Below, piece by piece: positions 24,305 through 28,358 of a stretch of 64,000 bases of DNA. Each line of letters opens with the position of its first letter. Positions within the stretch are counted from its first letter, which is position 1. Source of the stretch: Phycisphaera sp. (GTDB lineage: Bacteria; Planctomycetota; Phycisphaerae; Phycisphaerales; Zrk34); contig WGMA01000042.1 in assembly GCA_016125285.1 (NCBI GenBank), forward strand, positions 124,001 to 188,000, read 5' to 3'. A program made the position numbers and the translations under genes. Under the pieces are notes generated by a model, which had not been told where the DNA came from, searched no databases, and saw nothing but the letters and a program-made list of their open reading frames with translations.

Positions 24305-24312
24305 TTTATGTT
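24305..24312. repeat. Target-site duplication, left copy
   Basis: TTTATGTT immediately outside the left terminal repeat is repeated at 27015-27022 immediately outside the right one. Eight bases is the usual duplication length for IS1595-family elements. Confidence 0.9.
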
Positions 24313-24334
24313 CGGAAGTATGTACTTGACGCAA
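24313..24334. repeat. Left terminal inverted repeat of the IS1595-family element
   Basis: 22 bp, exact complement of 26993-27014. It includes GTACTTGACGCAA, a version of which recurs inside the element at 25657-25668 in the transposase promoter. Confidence 0.92.
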
Positions 24335-24350
24335 TGGGTGGTTTTGGCTG

Positions 24351-24479
24351 CTAACTACCCGGCACGCCAATCGCGAACAGGCCGACCACGTAGTTCAGGG
24401 CGAGATAGATACCCCAGAATCCCAATACGAGAAACACGCCAAGGCCAACCGCCGCAAGGCTACTCGGCTTCATCGTCAT
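24351..24479 (-). CDS. Tiny single-span membrane protein carried by the element
   Basis: 42 residues from the ATG at 24479, or 40 from 24473. One hydrophobic helix covers about residues 8-36 (LAAVGLGVFLVLGFWGIYLA), ending in GVPGS. Its start lies inside the end of the 60-residue ORF (overlap about 14-20 bp), which suggests coupled translation after the transposase. It is not a known IS1595 component in my memory. The well-formed membrane helix argues it is real, but it is short. Confidence 0.45.
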   Translation of the reverse strand: MTMKPSSLAAVGLGVFLVLGFWGIYLALNYVVGLFAIGVPGS

Positions 24480-24642
24480 TGTCGTCGCCCCCGGCGCTGT
24501 GATCCGGCCACCCGCCATCGGGCTTCTTCTTGTGCATCGCGTTCTTGACGGCATCCTCCCACTCGACGCCTTCAATCTTGAAACGCTCTGCATCTGGCCC
24601 GGGCTTTGACTTCCTATCTTCCTTGTTCGGTTCGTCGCTCAT
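24460..24642 (-). CDS. Small acidic hydrophilic protein carried by the element
   Basis: 60 residues, rich in Asp, Glu, Lys and Gly, ending GGDDNDDEAE. It contains FKIEGVEWEDAVKNAMHKKK and has no signal or membrane span. The start follows the transposase stop by nine bases on the same strand, with a GGGGTAAG stretch upstream, so it probably belongs to the transposase transcript. No family recognised. A regulatory or accessory transposition role is possible but unsupported. Confidence 0.5.
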   Translation of the reverse strand: MSDEPNKEDRKSKPGPDAERFKIEGVEWEDAVKNAMHKKKPDGGWPDHSAGGDDNDDEAE

Positions 24643-24651
24643 GATGTCATC

Positions 24652-25626
24652 TTACCCCGCTACTGGTTCCCGGTACATGAGACGCTTGTCGTTTGCGCCA
24701 CGGATCGCGGCGACGACTCGCTCGCCATCTTCCATCTCGCGATGGTTGTAGCGGAACTCGAACTCGTCCACGTACCGCTGGAGATGCTTTCGGCTGACGT
24801 TGTGGTACACGCCGTTGATGCCGCGCTTGAGGATCGCCCAGAACGATTCGATGGTGTTCGTGGTGATGTCGCCACGGACGTACTCGTAGGCGCTGTGCTT
24901 GACCGACTCGTGCCCGGCGTACTCGCGACCGATGCCAACGTAGGCCGGGGCTTCGTCGCTGATCAACGTCGATGACTGGTCGATCAACTCGTTGCACGCC
25001 TTCTTGAGATTGGCGGTGGTGACGCTGGGGATCACGCGGGCGCGAACCTGCCCGGTCTCGCGGACGACCGCGCCGAACACTGGTGCCTTGGGCTTGTGCT
25101 TCCACGTGTACTTGCCGTCCGCGCGATGGGGGCGATGCTTGCGCGGCTTGCCGCCGACGCGCGTCTCGTCAACCTCAACCGTCCCCTTGAGCTTCGGGCC
25201 GTCCTGTTTTGGGGCAGCAGCCCAACGCACGCGATGCAGGAGGAACAGGGCCGACTTGTAGGACAGGCCGGTGTGACGCTTAATCTCCAACGCGCTGACA
25301 CCCTTCTTGCTGGTGCACATTCTCCAAAACGCGTAGACCCAATGACGCGCCGGGATGCGCGATTCTTCCATGACCGTGCCGATGCGGACGGTGAACTGCT
25401 GCTTGCAGCCCTTGCAACGCCAGAGGAACCGCTTGTTGCGCTCGCCGGTCTTGCGGTCACGCATCTGGTACACATCAACGTCGCCGCAGCGGGGGCAGCA
25501 CGCGCCGCCGTCCCAACGCTGCTTCTCAAGGAACTCCACGGCGGCGGTCTCGTCAGCGCATGCCAGTGGGATGTCAGCGACGATCTCCGACTTGTCCTGT
25601 CCGACCTTCTTCTGGTTGCGAGCCAT
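24652..25626 (-). CDS. IS1595-family transposase
   Basis: 324 residues. An N-terminal zinc ribbon (CPRC at 44-47 and CKGC at 71-74) precedes a helix-turn-helix-like stretch (about 108-135) and the ISXO2-type DDE catalytic domain. Proposed catalytic residues are Asp153 (VEVDETRVGG), Asp224 (ISDEAPAY), and Asn257 or Glu260 with Lys267 in TNTIESFWAILKRGINGVYH, the IS1595 signature region. AAAGGAA precedes the ATG. A strong promoter lies 27-54 bp upstream. The frame is intact, so the element may be active. Confidence 0.93.
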   Translation of the reverse strand: MARNQKKVGQDKSEIVADIPLACADETAAVEFLEKQRWDGGACCPRCGDVDVYQMRDRKTGERNKRFLWRCKGCKQQFTVRIGTVMEESRIPARHWVYAFWRMCTSKKGVSALEIKRHTGLSYKSALFLLHRVRWAAAPKQDGPKLKGTVEVDETRVGGKPRKHRPHRADGKYTWKHKPKAPVFGAVVRETGQVRARVIPSVTTANLKKACNELIDQSSTLISDEAPAYVGIGREYAGHESVKHSAYEYVRGDITTNTIESFWAILKRGINGVYHNVSRKHLQRYVDEFEFRYNHREMEDGERVVAAIRGANDKRLMYREPVAG

Positions 25627-25652
25627 GATGGGTTCCTTTCGCTTCTGACATC

Positions 25653-25680
25653 ATTATACTTGACGCAACGCCAGCGTCAA
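25653..25680 (-). promoter_or_regulatory. Transposase promoter overlapped by an operator-like repeat
   Basis: On the minus strand, TTGACG (25675-25680) and TATAAT (25653-25658) are separated by 16 bp, a near-consensus sigma-70 promoter for the transposase. TTGACGC (25660-25666) and GCGTCAA (25674-25680) form an inverted repeat across the spacer and -35. The top-strand sequence TACTTGACGCAA (25657-25668) matches 12 bases of the terminal repeat. Transposase binding here could repress its own gene. Confidence 0.65.
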
Positions 25681-25731
25681 TACTTGCTTGCTTTAAATTC
25701 AATAAAATGCTTGCTTGATTTTGGTGCGTGC

Positions 25732-25760
25732 TTGCAAGCGAAACGTGGCTTGGGTAGAAT
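25732..25760 (+). promoter_or_regulatory. Promoter of the P63C gene
   Basis: TTGCAA (25732-25737) and TAGAAT (25755-25760) are spaced 17 bp and point toward the P63C gene, whose GAAAGGAG ribosome-binding site lies at 25778-25784. The -35 sits in the palindrome GCTTGCAAGC (25730-25739). Two further CTTGCTTG repeats lie upstream at 25683-25690 and near 25710, possibly operator sites. Confidence 0.6.
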
Positions 25761-25790
25761 CTGGGCAAGTAACGGTCGAAAGGAGCCATC

Positions 25791-26831
25791 ATGACCGAAG
25801 ACGAGTCGATCCAGTCGAAAGGCGGAAACGCGAGGGCCAAGAAACTCTCTCCAGAGCGCAGGAGCGAGATCGCTAAGAAGGCGAATATGGCTAGGTGGGC
25901 AAAGCGCAGAGTTGAAAACGCCGCAGAGAACAACTTGCCTGATGGCGAGTTGCCCGAAGCTGCCTACAAGGGGTTTCTTCGCGTCATGGGGGTTGAGGTT
26001 CCGTGCTACGTGCTCAACACGGGGCAGAGGGTGATTGGCCGAACATCAGCCACAGAGATGCTGACGGGGATCAAGGGCGGTGGAGCACTCGAGAAATACA
26101 TAGGGGTTTCATCGCTTAAGCCTTTTATCAACAAAGACTTGGTCCTCGAGCAAATGATTGGCTTTCGCCTTCCAGAGGTGGAGGGGTTGGACAGGGACGT
26201 AAAGGGGCTTCCGGCGGATGCATTCATTGATATCTGTCGCGGATTTGTTGCGGCGATGGAGGCAAGCAACGATCCAGGCTCTAAGATTAAGTTGACGCAG
26301 CGCCAAACCGAGATGGCGTTGAACGCCAGTGTGTTTCTGGCCGCATGCGCGAAGGTCGGCTTGGACGCCCTCATTGACGAGGCCACAGGGTATCAATACG
26401 AGCGGGCGGAAGACGCTCTTGAGGTTAAGCTACGCGCGTATCTCACAGACGAGATGCGAAAGTGGGAGAAGACATTTCCGGACGAGTTGTGGCGCGAGTT
26501 TGCACGGCTAACGAATTGGAAGGGGACGGTTACGCAGCGCCCAAAGTATTGGGGCAAACTTGTCATGGAATTGGTCTACGAATACCTAGACAAGGATGTT
26601 GCTGATTGGTTGCGTGAGAACGCTCCGAGGCCGAGAAAGGGCCAGAACTATCATCAGTGGCTTAGTGATCAATATGGCCTCAAGAAGCTGGTCGAGCATA
26701 TCTGGAAGCTGATTGGCGTGGCCAGCACATGCGAGAGCATGTCAGAGTTGAAGCAGCGCATGGCAGAGCTTTATGGGCGCGTCCCGGTTCAATACACGTT
26801 GTTCCTCCCGCCCCTGCCTCGCCGAGAATGA
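25791..26831 (+). CDS. P63C-domain protein carried by the element
   Basis: 346 residues. The N-terminus has a basic helix pattern common in phage and plasmid proteins (GGNARAKKLSPERRSEIAKK, 11-30). A middle segment reads VEVPCYVLNTGQRVIGR (about 69-85). The C-terminal part (about 225-315) matches what I recall of the P63C domain, with RPKYWGKLVMELVYEYL, then KGQNYHQWLSDQYGLKKLVE. That domain occurs in phages and mobile elements and its biochemical role is not known to me. It has its own promoter and a strong ribosome-binding site, and is followed by a 12-bp hairpin and then the tRNA-like gene. It could affect the tRNA, transposition or host response; none is shown. Confidence 0.75.
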   Translation: MTEDESIQSKGGNARAKKLSPERRSEIAKKANMARWAKRRVENAAENNLPDGELPEAAYKGFLRVMGVEVPCYVLNTGQRVIGRTSATEMLTGIKGGGALEKYIGVSSLKPFINKDLVLEQMIGFRLPEVEGLDRDVKGLPADAFIDICRGFVAAMEASNDPGSKIKLTQRQTEMALNASVFLAACAKVGLDALIDEATGYQYERAEDALEVKLRAYLTDEMRKWEKTFPDELWREFARLTNWKGTVTQRPKYWGKLVMELVYEYLDKDVADWLRENAPRPRKGQNYHQWLSDQYGLKKLVEHIWKLIGVASTCESMSELKQRMAELYGRVPVQYTLFLPPLPRRE

Positions 26832-26859
26832 ACAAGACCCGGCATTTGCCGGGTCTTGT
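26832..26859 (+). terminator. Hairpin between the P63C and tRNA-like genes
   Basis: Perfect 12-bp stem, ACAAGACCCGGC (26832-26843) with GCCGGGTCTTGT (26848-26859), loop ATTT. It starts directly after the P63C stop and ends three bases before the tRNA-like gene. There is no U-tract, so it may be a weak terminator or a processing signal that frees the tRNA 5' end. Confidence 0.6.
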
Positions 26860-26862
26860 GTG

Positions 26863-26947
26863 GCTCCCGTGGCGAAACTGGTAAACGCAGCCGATCTGGG
26901 GTCGGCCAACCGGGCAGGTTTTGCGGGTTCGAGTCCCGCCGGGAGCA
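26863..26947 (+). tRNA. Class II tRNA-like gene, anticodon UGG, inside the element
   Basis: 85 nt that fold as a full cloverleaf. The acceptor is 7 bp perfect (GCTCCCG/CGGGAGC) with discriminator A and no encoded CCA. The D stem is GCG/CGC with GG in the loop. The anticodon stem is GCCGA/TCGGC with loop TCTGGGG. A 16-nt variable arm has a 4-bp stem (AACC/GGTT). The T stem is GCGGG/CCCGC with loop TTCGAGT. The long variable arm and A73 resemble tRNA-Leu, but the anticodon is UGG (proline codons) and position 33 is C instead of the near-universal U. It may be an unusual decoder, a non-decoding tRNA mimic, or a decayed tRNA-Leu, although all stems are intact. Confidence 0.75.
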
Positions 26948-26992
26948 GTCTCATTATACCGGGGGTCGGGGTTTTCGGCCAGATTTACCCCT

Positions 26993-27014
26993 TTGCGTCA
27001 AGTACATACTTCCG
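26993..27014. repeat. Right terminal inverted repeat of the IS1595-family element
   Basis: 22 bp, the exact complement of 24313-24334, beginning TTGCGTCAAGTACATACTTC. Inward of this the ends are only partly similar. Confidence 0.92.
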
Positions 27015-27022
27015 TTTATGTT
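27015..27022. repeat. Target-site duplication, right copy
   Basis: TTTATGTT, identical to 24305-24312. Its last T is the first base of the TATAAT box downstream. Confidence 0.9.
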
Positions 27023-27695: not shown

Positions 27696-28358
27696 ATGAT
27701 CACACACGCACTCGGCATCCTGGAGATCAACGCGCTGACGCCCGCCATGGTTGCGCTCGACGCGATGGAAAAGGCGGCCGACATCCGCGTGCGCCTCACC
27801 GAGCTCAACGACCTGGCCGGCGTGTGCACGCAGATCACCGGCGACACCGCCGCGGTCGAAGCCGCGATCGCCGCGGGCGTGGCGGTCGCCGAGCAGATGC
27901 GCATCGAGTACGTCGTCCAGGTGGGCAACGGCGGGCAGGCGGGGCACGTCGGGCACGTGATCCCGCGACCCAGCGGCGACGCGGAACGATTCATCGTCGC
28001 CAAACCCGAATACACGCCGCTGATGGAATCCGAGATGGTGTGGTTCCCGAAGCGGCACGACAAGGAGAACAGCGTGGCAGACCCCAACAACTTCGCCCTC
28101 GGGTTCATCGAGACGCAGGGCTACACCGCCGTGTTCGAGGCGATCGACACCGCGTGCAAGGCGGCGAACGTCGAGGTCGTCGGCAAGGAGAAGCTCGGCG
28201 GCGGGTTCATCACCGTCGTGATCAAGGGCGACGTCGCCGCGGTCAAGGCCGCGATCGAGTCCGGCTCGGCCAAGGTCGAAGGCCTCGGCAAGCTCATCGC
28301 CGCGCACGTGATCGCCCGGCCGAGCGAGTCCGTGATGGCGCTGATGTCGAACGTTTAG
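27696..28358 (+). CDS. Tandem BMC-domain microcompartment shell protein (BMC-T type)
   Basis: 220 residues with two BMC folds. The first is at about 1-90 (ALGILEINALTPAMVALDAM) and the second at about 130-212 (ALGFIETQGYTAVFEAIDTA, then GGGFITVVIKGDVAAVKAAI). Fused pairs form trimeric, pseudo-hexameric shell tiles of bacterial microcompartments, often with a gated central pore. No BMC-H, BMC-P or signature enzyme gene is present within this window, so the rest of the shell must be elsewhere or this is an orphan. Planctomycete PVM-type compartments process lactaldehyde from fucose and rhamnose, and the surrounding genes look like deoxyhexose catabolism. It is convergent with the SGNH hydrolase gene. 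Confidence 0.85.
   Translation: MITHALGILEINALTPAMVALDAMEKAADIRVRLTELNDLAGVCTQITGDTAAVEAAIAAGVAVAEQMRIEYVVQVGNGGQAGHVGHVIPRPSGDAERFIVAKPEYTPLMESEMVWFPKRHDKENSVADPNNFALGFIETQGYTAVFEAIDTACKAANVEVVGKEKLGGGFITVVIKGDVAAVKAAIESGSAKVEGLGKLIAAHVIARPSESVMALMSNV

Follow-up and report, generated by a model that had tools for sequence, protein, structure and literature searches.

The anticodon of a leucine-type tRNA carried by IS1595 insertion sequences co-varies with transposase codons of the same element

Introduction

Among the bacterial tRNAs with long variable arms, the allo-tRNAs (Mukai et al. 2017; reviewed in PMC7609411) have an anticodon that is mismatched to their amino acid. They occur in Clostridia, Acidobacteria and Proteobacteria, are of the serine or alanine type with 8/4 or 9/3 acceptor-T arms and carry 35 anticodons; one allo-tRNA pseudogene overlaps a transposon-related open reading frame (ORF), and a link to transposable elements has been guessed (PMC7609411). 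Phage suppressor tRNAs, in turn, recode stop codons in genes of the phage that encodes them (PMC10879173, PMC11210395). Here, we describe a tRNA gene located inside an IS1595-type insertion sequence in a 64,000-nucleotide stretch of Phycisphaera sp. DNA (contig WGMA01000042.1, positions 124,001 to 188,000; hereafter the window), and a group of related elements in which the tRNA anticodon co-varies with codons of the transposase of the same element. An earlier note, made from the sequence of the window alone, had missed that the tRNA belongs to a whole element group and is coupled to its transposase codons. We somewhat favor the reading that it is an element-encoded missense tRNA, a functional component of a separate group within the IS1595 transposons, and that it would give rise to a leucine-containing transposase isoform.

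The element tRNAs resemble allo-tRNAs as bacterial long-arm tRNAs with a mismatched anticodon, but they are of leucine type with 7/5 arms and one dominant anticodon, and they have a defined place in IS1595 elements together with matching transposase codons. The window tRNA has a 7-bp acceptor and a 5-bp T stem rather than a 12-bp acceptor domain arranged as 8/4 or 9/3, and A73 and A15-U48 instead of the serine identity of allo-tRNAs (G73 and a serine-type core). As with the phage suppressor tRNAs, a mobile element brings along a tRNA that would alter the reading of its own genes; in the IS1595 case, however, the affected codons would be sense codons at single sites and not stop codons throughout the genome, and one would expect ambiguous decoding instead of a reassignment. 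Neither of these two systems couples a sense-codon tRNA to transposase sites.

With its PF12762/PF12760 domains, inverted repeats, 8-bp duplications and passengers, the group resembles IS1595 insertion sequences with passenger genes, from which it differs in having a tRNA as passenger. No tRNA passenger of IS1595 elements was found in the open-access literature, and we know of no IS1595 element that has been described with one. Programmed frameshifting in IS1 and IS3 elements yields two transposase-related products from one gene by non-standard decoding; the switch proposed here for IS1595 would share this outcome but would rely on an element-encoded missense tRNA, not on ribosomal slippage.

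Results and discussion

Transposase codons co-vary with the tRNA anticodon

Transposase searches in related genomes, GTDB species genomes, viral contigs and further genome sets recovered approximately 55 distinct transposases of the window-element group (loci examined are labeled with L-numbers). According to the records, the hosts belong to Planctomycetota, Acidobacteria, Gemmatimonadetes, Deltaproteobacteria and Gammaproteobacteria, and the anticodon UGG recurs across these. No fewer than 28 distinct relatives, from five or more phyla or proteobacterial classes, have an equivalent tRNA located between their repeats, with UGG in nearly all cases. Among the sufficiently complete elements, 26 carry a tRNA with UGG, five with UGC (L249, L251, L254, L255 and L268, with L255 and L268 near-identical) and one each with GGG (L085), AGG (L146) and UUA (L054); the anticodon loop of the UGG element L258 possibly has 8 nt. 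Approximately 16-18 sufficiently complete elements contained no recognizable tRNA; some of these may carry divergent tRNAs, and the contig of L095 stops inside the element.

The proline at codon 20 of the transposase, within the IPLACAD motif, is encoded by CCA in 24 of the 25 UGG elements with proline at this position versus 4 of 17 others (Fisher p = 1.1e-6), and Pro139 in 17/20 UGG elements versus 0/10 others (Fisher p = 9.5e-6). At prolines 45, 92, 144, 161, 182 and 200, CCA accounts for only 3 of 107 codons in UGG elements, the window transposase being an exception with CCA at Pro182. The codons also follow the less frequent anticodons. L085, with GGG, has CCT at codons 20, 139, 141, 145, 169 and 321 and CCG at the structural prolines 42, 45, 92, 161, 182 and 200; a GGG anticodon reads CCT and cannot read CCG. 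L146, with AGG, has CCC at codon 20, and in the UGC elements Ala103 is encoded by GCA in all five, versus GCG or GCC at the conserved Ala99, Ala112 and Ala126. From this coupling, we infer that the tRNA decodes, on the ribosome, codons in the transposase gene of its own element, and the exclusion of the readable codon from structural prolines suggests that the decoding product differs from ordinary proline.

The coupling was first noticed in the first batch of elements, and later batches served as a check: CCA was present at codon 20 in 8/8 UGG elements with Pro20 versus 0/5 elements without a tRNA (p = 8e-4). A quick tree with several open forks, built with the four proline sites left out, requires no fewer than 11 changes for the presence of the UGG tRNA and no fewer than 10 for CCA at codon 20. 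In five independent pairs on well-supported branches, codon 20 tracked the tRNA in 4.2 on average and the reverse was essentially never seen. The tRNA-less elements nest among tRNA-bearing ones and keep the proline, mostly as CCG, CCC or CCT. Relatives without the tRNA, which the earlier note had named as a possible argument against its proposal, thus do exist, yet they support the coupling because their matching codons changed synonymously.

The same covariation bears on two other explanations. A non-decoding RNA, i.e., a tRNA mimic serving as a regulatory RNA or structural signal of the element, would fit the unusual C33 of the window copy and several relatives as well as the tight placement between the repeats. 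However, the transposase codon changes mirror the anticodon changes, and the codons flanking codon 20 vary freely between elements instead of co-varying, which speaks against a DNA or RNA motif around this codon; furthermore, aminoacylation determinants are conserved and some tRNA copies encode the CCA end. We therefore consider this explanation, which the earlier note had raised in the form of a mimic that does not decode, very improbable. Alternatively, the tRNA might be a tool directed at the host, mistranslating host proteins or answering a tRNA-cutting host defense, with transposase codons that merely tolerate it. That structural prolines avoid the readable codon would agree with such tolerance, as would the mini-elements that retain a tRNA without a transposase (L233, L229/L241; see below), but tolerance leaves the near-fixed CCA at codon 20 and its synonymous change in tRNA-less elements unexplained, and CCA is rare in the host DNA of the window, with 2 of the 123 proline codons in the seven host genes flanking the element. 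A host-directed role appears distinctly unlikely to us.

Other types of recoding were rejected. There was no conserved downstream frame for +1 or -1 frameshifting after codon 20. Suppression of in-frame stops by the tRNA was discarded as well, since the TAA at codon 283 of L074 and L058 and the TAG at codon 302 of L061 are unmatched by the UGG tRNAs; these stops probably reflect decay. For the UUA tRNA of L054, UAA readthrough was considered, and only ordinary terminators without a convincing extension were seen.

The tRNA has a leucine-type body and is under selection

ARAGORN called a single tRNA in the window, Pro(TGG) at 26863-26947 on the forward strand, and Rfam RF00005 matched this region end to end (49.3 bits, E = 1.6e-7). 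All stems of the 85 nt tRNA are intact, with the acceptor stem GCTCCCG/CGGGAGC followed by the discriminator A73, the anticodon stem GCCGA/TCGGC enclosing the 7-nt loop TCTGGGG (C33, U34 G35 G36, G37), a 16-nt variable region (26907-26922) and the T-arm GCGGG-TTCGAGT-CCCGC. Both programs and our reading of the sequence hence agree with the intact class II cloverleaf, 16-nt variable arm, A73, UGG anticodon and C33 described in the earlier note. C33, which was found in the window tRNA and at least five relatives, is expected to weaken decoding and may set its rate.

Escherichia coli leucyl-tRNA synthetase (LeuRS) needs A73, A15-U48, G18G19 and A20a and does not use the anticodon, whereas proline identity consists of G72, G35, G36, A73 and G15-C48 (PMC9976931). 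The window tRNA has all of the leucine features A73, A14, A15-U48, G18G19, A20a and the long variable arm, each of which is found in 33-38 of 38 copies (A73 in 36, A15-U48 in 35 and A20a in 33, along with C2-G71 in 36). It has no leucine anticodon (NAG or NAA) and is thus leucine-like in its body and not a leucine isoacceptor. Of the tRNA-Pro features, G35, G36 and A73 are present, but C72 and A15-U48 replace G72 and G15-C48, which occur in only 4/38 and 2/38 copies, respectively. Prolyl tRNAs encoded by the host itself belong to class I and have C1-G72 and G15-C48; the latter pair is common to its serine, tyrosine and proline tRNAs, and its leucyl tRNAs are ordinary class II. Because the LeuRS determinants are kept and the proline determinants are nearly absent in the element tRNAs, charging with leucine would be the most economical interpretation. 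This upholds the earlier proposal of a leucine-type body with a proline anticodon and of a LeuRS that would ignore the anticodon: the determinants listed in PMC9976931 agree with it and are conserved in nearly all relatives.

These identity bases are also relevant for a simpler explanation, according to which the tRNA is charged with proline and helps to decode CCA, a codon used by the transposase and rare in GC-rich hosts. Most anticodons in the group are NGG and readable by prolyl-tRNA synthetase, CCA is rare in the flanking host genes as described above, and tRNA-less elements retain proline at codons 20 and 139. On the other hand, such a helper should favor CCA at every proline, and the structural prolines avoid it; G72 and G15-C48 are nearly absent while the leucine determinants are kept; and the UGC tRNAs have C3-G70 and not G3-U70, so that charging with alanine is not expected. 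We regard a helper function as unlikely.

In an alignment of 14 copies, standard pairs made up 99.6% of the stem cells, and two-sided changes occurred in 15 of the 20 stem pairs, in all four stems, a result matched by none of 500 shuffles. This pattern of substitutions indicates that the element tRNA is under selection, far beyond chance. An ordinary passenger, that is, a host tRNA-Leu captured by chance with a drifting anticodon and no function, might account for the elements without a tRNA and for the somewhat varying anticodons, but hardly for structure, identity bases and UGG being conserved across phyla and for the co-varying codons, and it is extremely unlikely. The anticodon rather than a single tRNA lineage appears to be what is selected, since UGG is also carried by a class I tRNA body in L092 and by the tRNA of L256 (L256:3002-3086), the only element tRNA with a serine-like body (G73, G15-C48).

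Two observations concern tRNA genes outside the element but within the same genome. The tRNA-Leu(UAA) of the host called at L046:223-296 (G000:C12) is class I and 74 nt long, and its body resembles the L092 tRNA. Moreover, L031 (G000:C32:12500-23500) contains approximately 31 tRNA genes on one strand, some of them class I with leucine anticodons; this dense array is possibly a mobile tRNA array.

A putative missense mechanism yielding two transposase isoforms

The proposed mechanism would begin with the host LeuRS, blind to the anticodon, charging the leucine-type body with leucine. The anticodon, mostly UGG, would then read the sense codon held at chosen transposase sites, chiefly 20 and 139, and competition with the host tRNA would leave a fraction of the transposase with leucine in place of proline at those sites. 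One gene could thereby provide two transposase isoforms, serving a purpose comparable to that of the programmed frameshifts of other insertion sequences, with structural prolines written in codons that the tRNA would be unable to read or would read poorly. The codon distribution suggests that the element deliberately alters the reading of its own message. As to the role of the leucine isoform, regulation of transposition is our guess. The complete scheme, i.e., programmed missense recoding in which a leucine-charged transposon tRNA acts at set transposase sites to produce a second isoform controlling transposition, with anticodon and codon co-evolving across phyla, is put forward tentatively, as a possibility to which we give slightly less than even credence.

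In an AlphaFold2 model of the transposase (mean pLDDT 76), residue 20 is part of an N-terminal helix spanning 14-24. The DNA-binding helices end at 137 and the catalytic strands start at 149, with residues 139 and 145 in the linker that connects them; residue 321 falls in a tail modeled with low confidence. In this model, a change from proline to leucine at residue 20 could straighten a kinked helix. The cost of CCA ambiguity to the host may be low because CCA is rare in the neighboring host genes.

Several points weigh against this mechanism. The five independent tree pairs do not suffice for a sign test at the 5% level, and of the roughly 10 proline sites inspected, 145 and 321 were selected only once the data had been seen. 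There are exceptions to the coupling: of the UGG elements, L087 has CCT and L252 has arginine at codon 20, and L083, L078 and L095 have CCA at codon 20 with no tRNA found. The tRNA-less elements have proline and never leucine at codon 20, and proline at 139 too; leucine is hence not strictly required. The evidence from the alignment that the codon stands for leucine is weak. In the UGC elements, GCA is found in I/L/V/M/F columns in 7/25 cases versus 5/58 for other alanine codons (p = 0.04, with two of the elements near-identical), and the only clear cases for CCA are two UGG elements with this codon at column 199 (98% V/I/M/L).

If the mechanism is true, ambiguity of sense codons would serve a mobile element as a means of regulation, with both the tRNA and its target codons on the element itself. 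This would be a natural and horizontally spreading case of site-specific missense decoding and a route to ambiguous sense codons in bacteria. Misfit tRNAs of soil and groundwater bacteria, until now listed with no purpose assigned, would gain one, and natural tRNAs that combine leucine identity with foreign anticodons would be readily available.

Boundaries and content of the window element

The insertion sequence at 24313-27014 (2702 bp) encloses the tRNA (Table 1). It has an ISXO2-like DDE transposase domain, an N-terminal zinc ribbon, terminal inverted repeats and an 8-bp target duplication; carriage of the tRNA by an IS1595 element, as stated in the earlier note, is thus borne out by the repeats, the duplication TTTATGTT and the domains PF12762 and PF12760. 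The named relatives with the highest identity to the transposase are from Phycisphaerae bacteria. Most related elements share the first 15-17 bases of the left repeat at their own ends, the terminal repeats of the group start with CGGAAGTATGTACTT or a close variant, and the 8-bp duplication was perfect in 33 of the 36 elements tested, one of them with a 2-base offset. The tRNA-bearing elements are thus intact, with precise boundaries marked by repeats and duplications, and carry the tRNA as cargo. The 6.1-Mb host genome contains a second IS1595 element (contig C72) whose class II tRNA has the anticodon UUA and is 76% identical over 84 bases.

Table 1 Features of the tRNA-bearing insertion sequence in the window
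Feature	Position	Strand	Remarks
Left target-site duplication TTTATGTT, 8 bp	24305-24312		Identical to 27015-27022
Left terminal inverted repeat, starts with CGGAAGTATGTACTTGACGC	24313-24338	+	26 nt, 96% complementary to right repeat
IS1595-type transposase, 324 aa	24652-25626	-	PF12762 2.5e-41, PF12760 6.9e-11
Transposase codon 321, Pro CCA; C-terminal tail, CCA-rich in UGG elements	24664-24666	-
Transposase codon 139, Pro CCA; second site that co-varies, in the linker joining the DNA-binding part to the catalytic part	25210-25212	-
Transposase codon 20, Pro CCA; main site co-varying with tRNA anticodon	25567-25569	-
P63C-domain gene	25791-26831	+	PF10546 1.4e-26
Hairpin with a perfect 13-bp stem, from P63C stop to tRNA; resembles a terminator but lacks a T run	26832-26859	+
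Class II tRNA, leucine-type body, anticodon UGG	26863-26947	+	ARAGORN, Rfam, sequence reading
Anticodon TGG (UGG); C33 at 26896	26897-26899	+
Right terminal inverted repeat	26989-27014	-	26 nt
Right target-site duplication TTTATGTT, 8 bp	27015-27022		Perfect copy of the left one

The link between the tRNA and the P63C gene, to which the earlier note had drawn attention, did not hold: tblastn gave no P63C match in any examined element beyond that of the window. The gene is incidental, a passenger of the window element only, and the P63C-tRNA pairing was dropped as a functional unit. A small ORF 3' of the transposase, with the conserved pattern PGPxxxxLKxxGxWxxAVKxAMxKKxPxxGWP, occurs in the window element and in L054, L074, L076, L081, L083 and L093; its product is a possible transposition partner. 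Among the genes flanking the insertion, a bacterial microcompartment shell protein (PF00936) is encoded at 27696-28358, near sugar-acid dehydratase and DHDPS-family genes.

Further tRNA-bearing elements

In the plasmid and phage collections, only distant IS1595 transposases were detected, the tRNA was absent at all four plasmid loci checked, and a plasmid search with the tRNA itself gave a single weak match. Viral contigs contained several related arrangements. A 653-bp mini-element with the ends and the 8-bp duplication of the group is located beside phage genes in L229 (2350-3002) and L241 (7996-8648); it has a class II tRNA with the loop TGTGTAA (UGU) and no transposase. L233 (11487-13705) harbors a 2.2-kb element with perfect ends and duplication and a class II UGG tRNA, again without a transposase, and is a non-autonomous carrier. 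Class II UUA tRNAs, which would read UAA, are present in L289, L290, L292, L294, L295, L297, L298 and L305; most have leucine-like bodies, and the arm GCGGT-CTTTAAA-ACCG is common among them. L294 and L108 (4917-7000, from Sphingopyxis), both IS1595 relatives from Alphaproteobacteria, each contain a pair of tRNA-like genes, namely a class II tRNA with UUA and a class I tRNA (CGU or GCU) whose anticodon stem is poor. Extra degenerate tRNA-like sequences were observed inside the elements at L054:4024-4094, L090:4622-4687, L089:2499-2569 and L084:6364-6435, and three of these have a reduced D arm.
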